A stretch of 64,000 bases of DNA, from positions 89,467 to 153,466 of the forward strand of contig JAEZSP010000079.1 of assembly GCA_023421735.1 (NCBI GenBank), in the 5' to 3' direction. The DNA is from Bacillota bacterium (lineage in GTDB: Bacteria > Bacillota_A > Clostridia > Christensenellales > Aristaeellaceae). The translations under genes and the position numbers were made by a program. The notes under the pieces are model-generated. The model was not told the DNA's origin and ran no database searches. It saw only the letters and a program-made list of their open reading frames with translations. Shown one piece after another: positions 9,181 through 59,941 of this stretch (position 1 is the first letter of the stretch; every line of letters begins with the position of its first letter).

Positions 9181-10263
9181 ATGAACAGTCGATACGCATT
9201 CGCGCCCGACTACGAGAACCTGGTTCGGGCGGCGAAAAACGAATGGGTTGCGCGCGTTCCGCTCTACGACCACCTCGTGGATATGCCGAAGATCGAGGAA
9301 ATGTCTGGCACCGAGGTCGGCGCGCTGATCGGCGCGTCGGATGCGGGCGAGAGGCGCGAGGGCTTCCGCCGCTATTGGGCGTTTTTCCGCGATCTGGGTT
9401 ACGACGCCGCGCCGTTCGAATGCTGCATCACGTCCGCGCTCATTGACGGCGGCGCGCTCGGCGCACACAAGGAAGGCTGCATCAAGACGCGCGAAGATTT
9501 CGAACGCTATCCTTGGGACGAAATCGAAGCGCGTTACGTTCAGGCGTTTGCGCCGCGGTTTGCATCCCTTCTGGAAACGTGCCCGCCGGGCATGAAGGCC
9601 GTGGGCGGCGTCGGGAACGGCGTTTTCGAGATCGTGCAGGACCTGGTTGGTTACATCAACCTCTGTTTTTTGCGCGCGGACGACGAGGAACTGTATGCGG
9701 ATCTGTTCGCGCGGGTGTCCGCACTCATGCATGCCATCTGGTCCTGGTTTTTGCCGGCCTATGGGGATGCGTACTGCGTTGTGCGCGCGGGGGACGATCT
9801 GGGCTTCCGTTCCTCCACACTTCTTTCAAAGGAAGATTTGCGCGCGCACGTGTTTCCGTGCTATCGTTCGATCGTCGATCTGGCGCACGCGCACGGCAAG
9901 CCGTTTTTGCTCCATTCCTGCGGAAATCTCCTCCCTGTCATGGACGAGCTGATCGACCAAACAGGCATCGACGCCAAGCACTCCAACGAGGACGCCATCG
10001 CGGAATTCCCCGTCTGGGTGGAACGCTTCGGGAAACGAATCGGCAATTTCGGCGGGTTGGACGTAAACGATCTTTGCCTGAAGACCGAGGCGGAGATTGA
10101 GGCGCGGGTGTTTGAATGCCTTGACCGCATCCGGGCAATCCCCGGTCACGGCGGCGTGGCGTTCGGCTCGGGCAACTCGATCCCGGTTTATGTGCCTGCG
10201 TCGGGCTACCGCGCCATGAACGAGGCCGTGCGCAAATGGCGGCAGGACCGGGCGGCGGAATGA
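9181..10263 (+). CDS. Uroporphyrinogen decarboxylase (URO-D) family protein
   Basis: A 360-residue TIM-barrel protein of the URO-D superfamily, which includes corrinoid methyltransferases. Supporting segments are LLHSCGNLLPVMDELIDQTGIDAKHSNED near residue 245 (conserved in the MtaA-like branch) and a final GGVAFGSGNSIPVYVP. No haem genes are nearby, so a decarboxylase role is unlikely; methyl transfer or another anaerobic function fits better, but no corrinoid protein is adjacent. GGAGGA lies 8 nt before the ATG. It is convergent with fumC, 1 bp apart. Confidence 0.85.
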   Translation: MNSRYAFAPDYENLVRAAKNEWVARVPLYDHLVDMPKIEEMSGTEVGALIGASDAGERREGFRRYWAFFRDLGYDAAPFECCITSALIDGGALGAHKEGCIKTREDFERYPWDEIEARYVQAFAPRFASLLETCPPGMKAVGGVGNGVFEIVQDLVGYINLCFLRADDEELYADLFARVSALMHAIWSWFLPAYGDAYCVVRAGDDLGFRSSTLLSKEDLRAHVFPCYRSIVDLAHAHGKPFLLHSCGNLLPVMDELIDQTGIDAKHSNEDAIAEFPVWVERFGKRIGNFGGLDVNDLCLKTEAEIEARVFECLDRIRAIPGHGGVAFGSGNSIPVYVPASGYRAMNEAVRKWRQDRAAE

Positions 10264-50659: not shown

Positions 50660-50712
50660 TCAGGGCCCAAAGAGGCAATGGACTGTAATCGGTGAAAGGA
50701 GGTGAGAAAAGA

Positions 50713-51396
50713 ATGACGGCAATGGACAAAATGACGGTCAAGAACCTTTTTTCGATGGAGTATACCATCGCGGCTGCGCTGTTTGATGAAATTGCGTATC
50801 CCTGGGAGGCGCTTTCCGAGATCAAGGCGTTTATTTTGGCGCTTGGTGAAACATTGGGCGACGAATTTGAAGCGCGCGAGGGTGGCATCTGGATTGCAAA
50901 GAGCGCGAAGGTTGCGGCAACGGCGTCGATCACCGGCCCGTGCATCATCGATGAAAATGCCGAGATCCGGCATTGCGCCTTCATCCGCGGCAGTGCGATC
51001 ATCGGGAAAAACGCGGTCGTCGGCAACTCCACCGAGGTGAAAAACGCGGTGATCTTCGATGGCGCGCAGGTTCCGCACTTTAACTATGTGGGCGACAGCA
51101 TACTGGGATACAAGGCGCACATGGGGGCTGGCGCGGTGACGAGCAACGTAAAGAGCGACAAGACGAATGTGACCGTGCGCTTCGGCGCGGCGAAGATCGA
51201 GACGGGTCTGCGTAAATTCGGCGCGATGCTCGGCGATCACGTCGAGGTCGGCTGCAACAGCGTGCTCTGTCCGGGCACGGTGATCGGGCGAAATACAACG
51301 ATTTATCCCCTGTCGCGGGTACGCGGGTTCGTGGACGCGGACTCGATCTTCAAAGCGCCCGACGACATCGTTAAAAAGAGGACAAGGGAGGTATAG
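50713..51396 (+). CDS. Hexapeptide-repeat acyltransferase-like protein (GlmU C-terminal-like)
   Basis: A 227-residue left-handed beta-helix protein. From about residue 65 it shows hexapeptide repeats (IWIAKSAKVAATASITGPCIID, quoted in parts; IIGKNAVVGNSTEVKNAVIF) and a GlmU-like segment NYVGDSILGYKAHMGAGAVTSN. There is no uridylyltransferase domain; the first 60 residues are helical. It may acetylate glucosamine-1-phosphate or supply part of a split GlmU, which fits its position 1 nt before glmM. AAAGGAGGTGA precedes the ATG. Confidence 0.85.
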   Translation: MTAMDKMTVKNLFSMEYTIAAALFDEIAYPWEALSEIKAFILALGETLGDEFEAREGGIWIAKSAKVAATASITGPCIIDENAEIRHCAFIRGSAIIGKNAVVGNSTEVKNAVIFDGAQVPHFNYVGDSILGYKAHMGAGAVTSNVKSDKTNVTVRFGAAKIETGLRKFGAMLGDHVEVGCNSVLCPGTVIGRNTTIYPLSRVRGFVDADSIFKAPDDIVKKRTREV

Positions 51397-51397
51397 A

Positions 51398-52762
51398 ATG
51401 GGTAGACTTTTTGGAACGGACGGCGTGCGGGGCATCGCCAACGAGGGACTGACCTGCGAACTCGCGATGGAACTCGGCGCGGCTGCCGCCATGGTGCTCG
51501 CCGGATCAAACGCGCGCAGACGACCCGTGATTGCCATCGGCATGGACAGCCGCATTTCCTCGGACATGCTGGCGCTGTCTGTCGCCGCGGGGCTGTGCTC
51601 CGTGGGTGCGGACGTCATCATGCTGGGCGTGGTGCCGACGCCGGCGGTTGCGTACCTGGTGGGCAAGTACAAGGCGGATGCGGGCGTCATGATCTCGGCA
51701 TCACACAATCCGGCGGACTTTAACGGCATCAAGATTTTCTCGGGCGACGGCACCAAATTGCCGGACGAGCTGGAGGAGCGCATCGAAGCGATCACGCTCG
51801 ACAAGGTTGTGAAGATGCACAGGCCCCTCGGCGCGGGCATCGGCAAGGTCACATATATGAACGATCGTGCGGCGCGCGATTATGTGGATCACCTGCGGTC
51901 GACCGTTGCGTTTTCGCTCGATGGGCTCAACATCGCGGTGGACTGTGCGCACGGCGCGGCAAGCGAGACGGCGAAGCTGCTCTTTGATTCCCTGGGCGCG
52001 AACTGCCACATCCTCCATGCGGCGCCGGACGGCATGAACATCAATGACGGCTGCGGCTCGACGCACATGGAGAAACTGACCGCGTATGTGATGGAACACA
52101 AGCTCGATGCCGGCGTGGCCTTTGACGGCGACGCGGATCGCTGCCTCATGGTCGATGAAAAGGGAAACCAGATCGACGGCGACATGATCATGGCCATGTG
52201 TGCGCTCGACATGAAAAAACGCGGCAGGCTTGCGCGCAACAGCGTCGTGGGGACCATCATGACAAACCTTGGCTTTGTCAAGTTCTGTGAGCGCGAGGGC
52301 ATTAATTTTGTCGCCACCAAGGTGGGCGATCGCTATGTGCTCGAGGAAATGCTGCTTGAGGACTACTACTTCGGCGGCGAGCAGTCCGGGCACGTGATCT
52401 TCCGCGATTTTGCCACGACGGGCGATGGCCAATTGACCGCCATTCAGCTTCTTTCGCTCATGCGGCGCGAGGGGAGGCCGCTCTCCGAGCTTGCGAGCGC
52501 GATGACCCGCTATCCGCAGTCGATGATCAACGTGCGCGTGACCCCCGAGGGAAAGCTCGCCTTCTATACCGACCCGGATATCAAGTCCGCCATCGAAGAA
52601 GCCAAGCGCGAACTCGGCTCCGATGGGCGCATCGTCGTTCGCACGTCCGGGACCGAACCGCTCATCCGCGTGATGACAGAGGGCGCCGACGATGCGAAGA
52701 TCAACGCCGTCTGCAAGACCGTAGCGGACACCGTAAAAAACCTTCTGGGAGACCTTCACTAG
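51398..52762 (+). CDS. glmM: Phosphoglucosamine mutase
   Basis: Isomerises glucosamine-6-phosphate to glucosamine-1-phosphate for UDP-GlcNAc synthesis. The 454-residue protein is complete: MGRLFGTDGVRGIAN start, phosphoserine loop ISASHNPADFNG (Ser102), metal loop FDGDADRCLM, sugar loop GGEQSGHVIF and the phosphate site RTSGTEPLIRVM. The ATG is 1 nt after the upstream stop. Its 3' end leads directly into a palindromic element and a glmS ribozyme, with a terminator only after the ribozyme. Confidence 0.97.
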   Translation: MGRLFGTDGVRGIANEGLTCELAMELGAAAAMVLAGSNARRRPVIAIGMDSRISSDMLALSVAAGLCSVGADVIMLGVVPTPAVAYLVGKYKADAGVMISASHNPADFNGIKIFSGDGTKLPDELEERIEAITLDKVVKMHRPLGAGIGKVTYMNDRAARDYVDHLRSTVAFSLDGLNIAVDCAHGAASETAKLLFDSLGANCHILHAAPDGMNINDGCGSTHMEKLTAYVMEHKLDAGVAFDGDADRCLMVDEKGNQIDGDMIMAMCALDMKKRGRLARNSVVGTIMTNLGFVKFCEREGINFVATKVGDRYVLEEMLLEDYYFGGEQSGHVIFRDFATTGDGQLTAIQLLSLMRREGRPLSELASAMTRYPQSMINVRVTPEGKLAFYTDPDIKSAIEEAKRELGSDGRIVVRTSGTEPLIRVMTEGADDAKINAVCKTVADTVKNLLGDLH

Positions 52763-52918
52763 AGCAATCCTCAGAAATACCGAGAAGCCCAGCGCGTCTT
52801 TTCGCCCAATACCGCGTCGCTGTTGCCTCGACGTAGCGCTGCTACGCCTTCGTCTCTGCTCCTTGTATTGAACGAAAATCCATCGCTTACTTTTTCTCTT
52901 GATTCCTAAGTCTTGCTC
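52762..52918 (+). repeat. Long palindromic intergenic element, copy A
   Basis: The element starts at the last base of the glmM stop codon. Nested inverted pairs converge on a centre: GAGCAA/TTGCTC at the ends, GAGAA/TTCTC, TTTTCG (52799) / CGAAAA (52873), CAATAC (52807) / GTATTG (52865), and CGTAGC-GCT-GCTACG at 52832-52846. The transcript would form one long imperfect hairpin. Copy B at 58742 has the same plan and the shared core GACGTAG...CTACGCC. Confidence 0.65.
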
Positions 52919-52922
52919 AAAA

Positions 52923-53068
52923 GGATAAGCGCCTGAGCCGCCTTGGCGGCTGACGAGGTGGGAAGTGATCGAATCTTCGGCGGATGCTTCCCCGGCGACG
53001 GAACGCCGTAACCCGACCGACAAATACGCGGGTAACCGCGGGACAAAACGATCGGGGTTCCGGGAATC
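52923..53068 (+). ncRNA. glmS ribozyme (glucosamine-6-phosphate-activated), without glmS
   Basis: The conserved core is present in order: cleavage site A/GCGCC with G+1 at 52929; P2 hairpin GCCGCC-TTG-GGCGGC; GACGAGG; GGGAAG-TGATCGAA; TTCGGCGGATGC; CTTCCCCGG closing P2.1; GGCG-ACGGAA-CGCC then GTAA (P3); and the P4/P4.1 arm AACCCGACCG...CGCGGGTAACCGCG...CGATCGGGGTT. This is the ribozyme that normally opens glmS mRNA and self-cleaves with GlcN6P as cofactor. No glmS reading frame follows; a terminator does. Confidence 0.9.
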
Positions 53069-53081
53069 ACACTCTTTGAGT

Positions 53082-53125
53082 CGACCGTCCGTGGGCCGTG
53101 TCCCGGACGGTCGCATTTGTATTTT
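53082..53125 (+). terminator. Terminator after the glmS ribozyme
   Basis: The perfect 10-bp stem CGACCGTCCG / CGGACGGTCG (53082-53091, 53104-53113) is followed by CATTTGTATTTT. It ends the glmM-ribozyme transcript before corA. Confidence 0.8.
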
Positions 53126-53200
53126 GACGCACGGTTTACGGGAACTTTGCGGCGCAGTCACTGCAATTTAGAGCGCGTTGGGCAGAGAGGCGACCGGTCA

Positions 53201-53229
53201 TTGCCCGCGGTGCGCGGTTGTGCTACAAT
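53201..53229 (+). promoter_or_regulatory. Promoter of corA
   Basis: TTGCCC (53201-53206), 17-bp spacer, TGC-TACAAT (53224-53229). It makes corA independent of the ribozyme transcript. Confidence 0.6.
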
Positions 53230-53247
53230 ATGGGCGGAGGGATGCGC

Positions 53248-54078
53248 ATGGCAATTTATGTGGGCGAGCACGCGGATGCGCGGATGCGGGAGAAGGTGGG
53301 TGCGGATTTATATGCGCGGCAGCGTGCGACGCGGCACTTGTGTGTGCCGATCGACGACGGCGCATACTTTCTCGCGTTTTATGTGACGGATGTGCGCGGT
53401 GCGGCCGGGCGCGATCTGCGCGTGACGATCTATGTGAACCAGGAAGATCTGATTGCGGACAGCGAAAGCGAAAAGGTAAACGGCGTTTTTCGGGGCATGA
53501 AGGATGGCATCAAGCCCGCGCAGGCGCTGACTGAATTCTTGAGCACGCTGACGGAGGGCGACGTGGATGCGTTGGAGACGATCGAGAACGACATCAATGC
53601 GCTCGACGACGCGCTGATCTCCGGAAAAAAACCGCTCGACGACGCCATTGCGCGGATTGTTGCGCTGCGGCGCGCACTGCTCAATTATAAAAGATATTAT
53701 GAGCAGCTCGAGGCCGTTCTCGGGCGGTTGGTCGAAAATGAGGCGGAGGCATTTACAAAGGCGGAAACGGAGAAGCTCGAAATCCTGGAACGGCGCGTTT
53801 CGCGGCTCGTGGACGCAGTGAGCCACCTGCGCGAGGGCGTGACGCAGGCACGCGAGGCATACCAGGCGCAGATTGACATTGAGCAGAACCAGATCATGAA
53901 AATCTTTACCGTCATCACCGCGTTTTTCCTGCCGCTCACACTCATTGTCGGCTGGTATGGCATGAATATGCAGATGCCGGAATACGGTTGGCGCTACGGA
54001 TATCTCTATGTGGGGATTCTCAGCGTCGTCGTGTGCATCGCCCTGTTTATTTTCATTCGCAGGAAGCGGTGGTTTTGA
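53248..54078 (+). CDS. corA: CorA-family divalent cation transporter
   Basis: A 276-residue CorA-type Mg2+/Co2+ channel. A cytoplasmic alpha/beta domain and long coiled helices (about 90-215, LEIEND-like LETIENDINALDDAL) lead to two C-terminal membrane helices with the selectivity signature YGMNMQMPE. The basic tail RRKRWF is typical. It is shorter than classical CorA (about 315). The ATG at 53248 has GGAGG 7 nt upstream; an ATG at 53242 is too close. Confidence 0.92.
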   Translation: MAIYVGEHADARMREKVGADLYARQRATRHLCVPIDDGAYFLAFYVTDVRGAAGRDLRVTIYVNQEDLIADSESEKVNGVFRGMKDGIKPAQALTEFLSTLTEGDVDALETIENDINALDDALISGKKPLDDAIARIVALRRALLNYKRYYEQLEAVLGRLVENEAEAFTKAETEKLEILERRVSRLVDAVSHLREGVTQAREAYQAQIDIEQNQIMKIFTVITAFFLPLTLIVGWYGMNMQMPEYGWRYGYLYVGILSVVVCIALFIFIRRKRWF

Positions 54079-59171: not shown

Positions 59172-59184
59172 GAAGGCGCTTGAA

Positions 59185-59293
59185 GTCTTCAAGGTGGGGA
59201 GAATATCCCAACCGGCGGTGATAGTCCGCAAGCCGCGAGGCAGATCCGGTGCAATTCCGGAACCGACGGTATAGTCCGGATGAGAGAAGATAT
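59185..59293 (+). ncRNA. FMN riboswitch (RFN element)
   Basis: The aptamer matches the RFN consensus throughout: TCTTC, GGGGAGAATATCCCAACC, GGCGGTGATAGTCCGCAAGCC, GATCCGGTGCAATTCCGG, CCGACGGTATAGTCCGGATG and the closing GAAGA. Downstream, GATATG-A-GCC can pair with GGGCCCATATC next to the ribosome-binding site, and no U-tract is seen, so control of translation is more likely than termination. FMN should repress ribU. Confidence 0.95.
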
Positions 59294-59341
59294 GAGCCGA
59301 GGCCTTTCGCTTCAATCCGGGCCCATATCCCAAGGAGAAAT

Positions 59342-59941
59342 ATGACGGCTTTTTCAAAAAGTCCCCGCCGCGCGGTAGCGCGCAAGCTGGCGCTGGGGGG
59401 CATGCTTTCTGCACTCGCCACGATTCTGATGTTCATTTCTTTCAACGTACCGCTCATGCCCAGTTTCATCAAGCTCGACTTTTCGGAGTTGCCCGCGCTC
59501 ATCGCGGCATACGCGCTTGGGCCGATTGGCGGACTCGCAGTTTGCCTGATTAAGAACCTCGTGAACCTCACCTTTACCCAGACGGGCGGCGTGGGTGAAC
59601 TTGCGAATTTCATCATCGGCGCGCTGTTTGTGGTTCCGGCGGGACTCGTCTTCCGGAAATGGCCTACGCGCGGCGGCGCGCTCGCGGGCGGACTGATCGG
59701 CGCGGCGGCAATGGCGGTTTTGAGCGTTTTTACAAATTATTACGTCGTTTATCCCGTGTATACAGCCTTCATGCCCATGAACGTCATACTTGATATGTAC
59801 CGCGTGTTCAACTCGAATGTCAAGACGCTGTGGGACGCGCTTTGGTGGTTCAATATGCCCTTCACGTTTATCAAGGGGCTGATTTCGGCGGGCATGTGCT
59901 TTGTGATCTTCAAGCCCATCGCGCGGCTCATCAAATTTTGA
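59342..59941 (+). CDS. ribU: Riboflavin ECF transporter S component
   Basis: A 199-residue membrane protein with about six helices. It has the RibU pattern FSELPALIAAYALGPIGGLAVCLIKNLVN (quoted in parts) and a C-terminal FTFIKGLISAGMCFVIFKP. The S component binds riboflavin and works with the shared ECF module, whose genes are elsewhere. AAGGAGA lies 4 nt before the ATG. The upstream FMN riboswitch confirms the vitamin specificity. Confidence 0.95.
   Translation: MTAFSKSPRRAVARKLALGGMLSALATILMFISFNVPLMPSFIKLDFSELPALIAAYALGPIGGLAVCLIKNLVNLTFTQTGGVGELANFIIGALFVVPAGLVFRKWPTRGGALAGGLIGAAAMAVLSVFTNYYVVYPVYTAFMPMNVILDMYRVFNSNVKTLWDALWWFNMPFTFIKGLISAGMCFVIFKPIARLIKF

Follow-up and report, generated by a model that had tools for sequence, protein, structure and literature searches.

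In the glmM-glmS operon of Bacillus, the glmS ribozyme lies behind glmM, which is also its position in the locus described here. The product of glmM, phosphoglucosamine mutase, consumes glucosamine-6-phosphate (GlcN6P) as its substrate. In 2011, McCown, Roth and Breaker reportedly surveyed 463 ribozymes of this class and found all but two within glmS mRNAs, and Collins reportedly found in 2007 that Bacillus degrades the cleaved message starting at the newly formed 5' end. The accessible part of one review assigns the class to the 5' leaders of genes required for GlcN6P synthesis (PMC6154101), and that of another states that cleavage eventually leads to mRNA degradation (PMC10043782). Ribozymes of this class without glmS go unreported in the titles or abstract openings among the literature matches listed. 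The molecule itself is known; its place at the 3' end of glmM is, to our knowledge, new.

The locus belongs to a contiguous stretch of 64,000 nucleotides, referred to below as the window, whose features are collected in Table 1. When the whole window was scanned with cmscan against all Rfam families, two of them reached the cut-off, the glmS ribozyme and the FMN riboswitch. The glmS ribozyme (RF00234) was matched at 92.9 bits (E 3e-20; gathering score 37 bits), and the alignment spans model positions 1-167 of 167. This is the Infernal search that a previous, sequence-only reading of the DNA had proposed, and it bears out the claim that every conserved segment of the core is present: A/GCGCC, GACGAGG, AUCGA and UCGGCGG are all found. 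A GUAA tetraloop on 5 closing pairs caps the P4 arm. The Rfam helices also form, the alignment marking 3 non-standard pairs among them; this check consists of the Rfam alignment and the P4 tetraloop, the pseudoknot helices lying outside the scoring. The earlier description of pairing as intact in all helices is therefore nearly, though not entirely, accurate. The FMN riboswitch (59181-59295, 106.5 bits) overlaps the start of an ORF (59249-59941) that resembles a riboflavin transporter by eye, which is an ordinary placement.

The match starts 154 nt behind the glmM stop codon (52760-52762). Cleavage is predicted between A52928 and G52929, which we take to be the cut site from its position in the glmS ribozyme family; this places it 166 nt past the stop, in agreement with the earlier estimate of about 165 nt for the start of the core. 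The window RNA thus shares its core, the Rfam helices and the GNRA-ended P4 arm with the Bacillus subtilis type of RF00234. It differs from that type in its surroundings, since no GlmS relative is present in the window and the ribozyme forms the hairpin-closed 3' tail of a glmM unit. Lying in a glmS 5' leader describes how such a ribozyme is used and is not a property of the RNA itself. Negative feedback of GlcN6P on its own synthesis is likewise not what the locus offers, as the adjoining upstream gene is glmM and the window is without glmS. The window RNA is a real, structurally intact glmS ribozyme, orphaned at the 3' end of glmM, and one of a recurring set.

Table 1. Features of the glmM-corA interval of the window, and layouts of ribozymes without an adjacent glmS in related genomes
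Feature	Position or genomes	Strand	Evidence or remark
Hexapeptide (left-handed beta-helix) transferase gene, first of the glmM unit	50692..51396	+	Pfam Hexapep 55.5 bits
glmM, phosphoglucosamine mutase, 454 aa	51398..52762	+	Pfam PGM_PMM I-IV
Spacer with matching ends GAGCAA / TTGCTC	52762..52918		End-to-end fold as imperfect palindrome possible
glmS ribozyme (RF00234), intact core	52917..53066	+	cmscan, core segments, tetraloop
Perfect 10-bp hairpin, then CATTTGTATTTT; likely transcript end	53082..53113	+	Hairpin search, -24.4 kcal/mol
Promoter-like site TTGCCC, 17 nt, TACAAT before corA	53201..53229	+	9/12 matches
corA-like Mg2+ transporter gene (ORF open from 53218)	53248..54078	+	Pfam CorA 150.1 bits
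Group A, 3' tail of glmM/hexapeptide unit	8 genomes: G007, G326, G216, G301, G035, G423, G408, G087		Window is the ninth case
Group B, stand-alone unit	6 genomes: G413, G308 (identical), G387, G349, G400, G438		
Group C, before nagB	6 genomes: G149, G616, G668, G582, G931, G814		
Group D, before hexapeptide gene or glmM	4 genomes: G634, G244, G104, G1026		
Group E, relic-like	3 genomes: G079, G715, G850		G079 core broken; G715 core intact, with GlmS pieces; G850 core broken

The hexapeptide gene also matches Hexapep_GlmU at 19.8 bits, under the Pfam cut-off of 23.3. The GlmM of the window is 71% identical to that of L001 and 93% identical to P0001, the closest metagenomic protein; such close metagenomic relatives, P0001-P0018 at 79-93% GlmM identity, are known as proteins only. 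The spacer (52763-52916) folds at -33.0 kcal/mol, and blastn revealed no second copy of it in the window or in the relatives' loci searched, so it was not retained as a repeat family. Its palindrome ends ten bases before the predicted cut. The fold might shield the cut glmM end, which is only a possibility because 26 of 200 shuffled sequences fold as well.

The stretch behind the ribozyme (53067-53125) folds at -26.6 kcal/mol (z -4.68), beating 200 of 200 shuffles. The perfect hairpin with a U-rich tail noted previously is thus present, although its tail begins two bases past the stem, is weak for an intrinsic terminator and fails the strict terminator (U-tract) rule; a simple terminator scan lists only a shorter, overlapping stem. 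Consequently, the hairpin is called a likely rather than a proven transcript end. The order given by the sequence-only reading holds, a promoter-like site and corA coming only after the hairpin. The site before corA is the sole promoter-like one on the + strand in 52700-53300, and none was found on that strand between glmM and the ribozyme (52762-52917). The ribozyme could in principle govern corA as part of its leader, given that this gene has the same orientation and starts about 180 nt further on, but the hairpin and the separate promoter-like site stand between them, and the remaining 3'-tail genomes have a different gene at this place or one in the opposite orientation. A role as corA leader was rejected for the window on these grounds and is very improbable.

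The absence of glmS, claimed earlier for the site of the ribozyme, extends across all 64 kb of the window, where tblastn with two GlmS queries from relatives (E 1e-3) returned nothing; this statement covers the window, and a glmS may lie elsewhere in the chromosome. Over the 2.5 kb that follow the ribozyme, the strongest GlmS match has an E value of 4.3. With the window GlmM as query, 80 relative loci were collected, and the ribozyme was sought in the genomes of the first 33, whose titles include Clostridiales (as for L001), Clostridia and Oscillospiraceae bacterium. It is present in 8 of the 33, and in 7 of these 8 the order is glmM, then ribozyme, then glmS. Four of the loci (L001, L005, L008 and L009) resemble the window in having an upstream glmM and the same ribozyme class, but have glmS within about 200 nt where the window has none; the glmS of L001 (genome G001) is read as two fragments with overlapping model coordinates. 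The eighth ribozyme-bearing relative (L007, genome G007) has a hairpin with a U-tract behind its ribozyme and is without glmS. Because the relatives keep the glmM-ribozyme-glmS order in seven of eight cases, glmS was most likely deleted at the window locus. G715 has glmM, a ribozyme with an intact core and, directly behind it, short GlmS pieces, a deletion scar that shows the route by which glmS is lost. The earlier proposal that glmS was lost while the ribozyme stayed is well supported by the relatives' layout, eight orphan genomes and G715. We put a probability of roughly 60% on the reading that the window ribozyme was left behind when glmS was deleted from an ancestral glmM-ribozyme-glmS operon and now forms the 3' end of a hexapeptide-glmM unit, where it is probably transcribed and most likely still cuts itself. 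A gene removed by faulty assembly would give the same picture, and the window does rest on one contig; against this, eight other assemblies have the same layout without glmS over the cut-off (among them G087, whose contig ends 1,058 nt behind its ribozyme), which makes such an error very unlikely.

The survey of the class was extended to overlapping family, genus, order and class sets of genomes. A ribozyme was found in 68 of 295 genomes of the family of G001, 12 of 30 of the genus of G007, 99 of 394 of the order and 148 of 391 of the class. Among 170 ribozyme loci from the 33 genomes and the family, genus and order sets, with repeats of one place counted once, 22 are without a GlmS relative (tblastn, E 1e-5). 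The same applies to 5 of 111 further ribozymes of the class survey, outside of which 35 places were left out and 4 were already in the first set. In total, a GlmS relative is missing from the downstream stretch examined for 27 of 281 ribozymes, which come from the taxonomic class to which L001 belongs. In the first set this stretch was between 1.5 kb and several kb long, except near contig ends, where it was shorter (182 nt in G149, 1,058 nt in G087). For 3-kb loci, "linked" denotes a GlmS relative within 1.5 kb, and four odd class-survey loci (GlmS more distant, or a partial match) were counted as linked. The 27 include two genomes identical at the locus (G308 and G413) and two ribozymes under the gathering score (G582, 33.6 bits; G814, 30.1 bits). 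To describe glmS ribozymes as 5' leader elements of glmS, as the sequence-only reading did, is therefore too strict, as these 27 are not. To look for sister 3'-tail orphans of G423, 117 of its relatives were searched; 28 carry the ribozyme, and the order survey had already listed every one of these. In a side observation, locus L404 (genome G833) has a pair of glmS ribozymes upstream of glmS, with the same orientation and separated by about 1.3 kb; the class is listed among those not found in tandem in the accessible part of a review (PMC9481103).

The unlinked ribozymes fall into the five groups of Table 1. Hexapeptide genes of the relatives were named by likeness to the window gene, and the nagB genes of G931 and G814 by likeness to other nagB genes, in both cases without a family scan; the nagB frame of G814 is short, and no gene was identified behind the broken ribozyme of G850. 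All four core segments are present in 9 of 9 ribozymes of group A (window included), 5 of 5 of group B (G308 omitted as a copy of G413), 4 of 4 of group C and 3 of 3 of group D, compared with 141 of 146 linked ribozymes (L091 and L230 dropped, their ribozymes not being placeable by the script) and 0 of 1 for G079. Of the class-survey orphans, G715, G931 and G1026 have all four segments, G814 misses one and G850 two. Group A ribozymes score 72.6-100.3 bits, inside the range of the family and order surveys; their alignment has 36 invariant columns, and in 9 of 9 a GNRA loop caps P4, whose stem has 5 to 7 pairs and varies in sequence.

A contiguous hairpin of at least 9 bp occurs within 110 nt behind the ribozyme in 6 of 9 cases of group A, 5 of 5 of B, 1 of 4 of C and 0 of 3 of D, and behind 31 of 146 linked ribozymes, for which the search was limited to the stretch before the glmS start. 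Under the strict terminator rule (-8 kcal/mol), the corresponding figures are 5 of 9 (the window not among them), 5 of 5, 0 of 4, 0 of 3 and 25 of 146. Hairpins behind linked ribozymes also occur and are not rare.

The search for glmS elsewhere took in all genomes of the 27 except G931, G814, G1026, G715 and G850. No TIGR01135 match over the cut-off was found in the eight group A genomes, which are multi-contig and possibly incomplete assemblies. Full glmS genes are present elsewhere in five group B genomes (G349, G387, G400, G413 and G438), and none over the cut-off was found in G308. In group C, the hit of 501 residues in G668 starts near a contig end, the glmS of G616 is broken into several frames, and G149 and G582 have no glmS over the cut-off. 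G634 of group D has a full glmS; G244 and G104, as well as G079 of group E, have none over the cut-off. Among 40 chosen genomes, nagB (TIGR00502) exceeds the cut-off in 31; its coordinates place it behind the ribozyme in G616, G668, G582 and G149 (cut by the contig end). In group A, G408 has no nagB match and G423 has matches only under the cut-off. Elsewhere, a nagB-like gene stands directly 3' of glmM in L017 past position 9356, and that genome (G017) is without glmS over the cut-off.

In group B, a promoter-like site (TTGACA, 17 nt, TATACT or TATATT, by eye) lies just upstream and a hairpin downstream. Loci L257, L258, L260, L261 and L269, in five genomes with a full glmS elsewhere, show the ribozyme alone between a consensus-like promoter and a hairpin. 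It is possible that these stand-alone ribozymes would function as a free GlcN6P-sensing RNA. Pairing between the stand-alone RNA and its own genome's glmS leader was considered and rejected, as it did not stand out from 20 shuffles per genome in 5 of 5 genomes. The glmS leaders L310 and L312, from genomes with stand-alone ribozymes, share GTGTGCTGCCAGGTGCAGCGA, followed by a terminator-like hairpin, by eye. For the window, independent transcription of the ribozyme from a promoter of its own, the arrangement of G349, G387, G413, G400 and G438, has the existence of such units in relatives in its favour, but the spacer is without a promoter-like site on the + strand and the ribozyme directly adjoins glmM. 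This explanation was rejected for the window and is highly improbable.

Ribozymes before glmM or the hexapeptide gene were seen at loci L303, L306, L308 and L467, and ribozymes before nagB at L295, L300, L304, L305, L472 and L481, of which L304 and L481 score under the gathering score. The layouts of groups B, C and D are common to related genomes, with conserved cores and changed stems by eye. This comparison, which is not a covariation test, covers 12 ribozymes aligned in three sets, with G582, G814 and G634 left out, and it suggests a stronger case for kept function without glmS in these three groups.

In the window, the ribozyme is probably transcribed by read-through from glmM, since the spacer is without a promoter-like site of its own. 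When GlcN6P, the substrate of GlmM, is abundant, the RNA would most likely cut itself between A52928 and G52929. Such a cut would part the glmM message from its terminal hairpin, freeing a fragment made of ribozyme and hairpin and leaving glmM upstream, minus the hairpin. In the other eight group A genomes, the new 3' end would be short and probably mostly bare, since the start of the Rfam match relative to the last gene ranges from an overlap of 13 bases to a gap of 134 nt. A ribozyme acting on the glmM transcript from its 3' end, the second possibility raised by the sequence-only reading, is plausible and fits the anatomy of the locus. That GlcN6P triggers removal of the glmM hairpin where GlmS is gone, as one of several rewirings of the class, is nonetheless a tentative reading; equally tentative is the list of rewirings it would comprise, with the ribozyme as 3' tail of glmM, 5' of glmM, 5' of nagB or as a stand-alone RNA.

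The history of the group A loci was examined on two GlmM trees, one with the window and 77 loci, among which some genomes are represented by two stretches, and one of 112 sequences, both read without branch supports. Members of group A are scattered on the trees, which therefore suggests many separate losses of glmS, most simply recent ones. No clade sharing the 3'-tail state was found. A shared loss in G216 and G301 is not supported, the two being paired in the 77-locus tree and split by linked relatives in the 112-sequence tree. G007 and G326 lie close together; the 77-locus tree places the linked L110 between or next to them, while the 112-sequence tree has no linked genus mate of theirs; G035 is on neither tree, as its examined stretch holds no GlmM. 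In the genus of G007, 15 of 30 genomes are without glmS over the cut-off; 13 of these 15 are also without the ribozyme, and only G007 and G326 keep it.

These patterns bear on whether the window ribozyme serves glmM at all. It may be a passive relic of a recent glmS loss, still undecayed and of no use to glmM, whether it cuts or not. A scattering of 3'-tail orphans is what undecayed relics would produce, and the double absence in most glmS-less genomes of the genus of G007 points the same way. So do L003, L004 and L006, from genomes without both glmS and ribozyme, which have a hairpin within about 50 nt behind glmM by eye, as well as the broken cores of G079 and G850 and the deletion scar of G715. 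Against a relic stand the core segments and tetraloop kept in 9 of 9 3'-tail cases, the fact that only three of the 27 unlinked ribozymes (G079, G850 and G814) miss a core segment, and the sharing of other unlinked layouts among groups of related genomes. The sequence-only reading had taken intact pairing as an argument against decay, which is weak because a recent loss of glmS leaves an intact RNA too. Overall, a passive relic is possible but uncertain.

Somewhat less probable still, and a special case of the favoured reading of a ribozyme left behind by glmS deletion, is that the ribozyme has been kept by selection because GlcN6P-triggered 3' cutting lowers glmM mRNA. The sign of this effect would be the same as that expected of the 5' ribozymes before glmM or its partner gene in the four group D genomes, where a ribozyme does lie 5' of the glmM unit, and the hairpin closure of the 3' class together with its intact cores is consistent with it. 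A loss of glmS common to the window and L004 would speak for long retention of the ribozyme, and L004, without either element, is the window's nearest leaf in the 112-sequence tree; the 77-locus tree, however, groups the window with L001 and kin and sets L004 outside them. The lack of a 3'-tail clade on the trees also counts against selection.

The nagB-side ribozymes resemble that of the window in having no adjacent glmS but differ in position, forming the 5' leader of a glucosamine-6-phosphate deaminase gene instead of a 3' tail. In the four such genomes tested, glmS is absent over the cut-off, partial or broken. In this layout GlcN6P would lower nagB, a sign that fits NagB being used to make GlcN6P. 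In the accessible part of one study (PMC5902328), Akkermansia muciniphila is without GlmS and needs GlcNAc or GalNAc, and thus GlmS-less bacteria living on host amino sugars are known; according to the same part, its NagB formed no GlcN6P at physiological conditions. The latter result is a warning against assuming that NagB makes GlcN6P.

The glmS ribozyme is regarded as belonging to a single gene, and yet 27 of 281 are unlinked, some in layouts that recur in related genomes. It has been proposed as an antibiotic target, as stated in the accessible part of one article (PMC11477304), and the identity of the governed gene therefore matters. The ribozymes before nagB would point to GlcN6P production by the deaminase in lineages where GlmS has been lost or is being lost. 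If the 3' case is active, it would represent a metabolite-dependent cut working from the 3' end of an mRNA.
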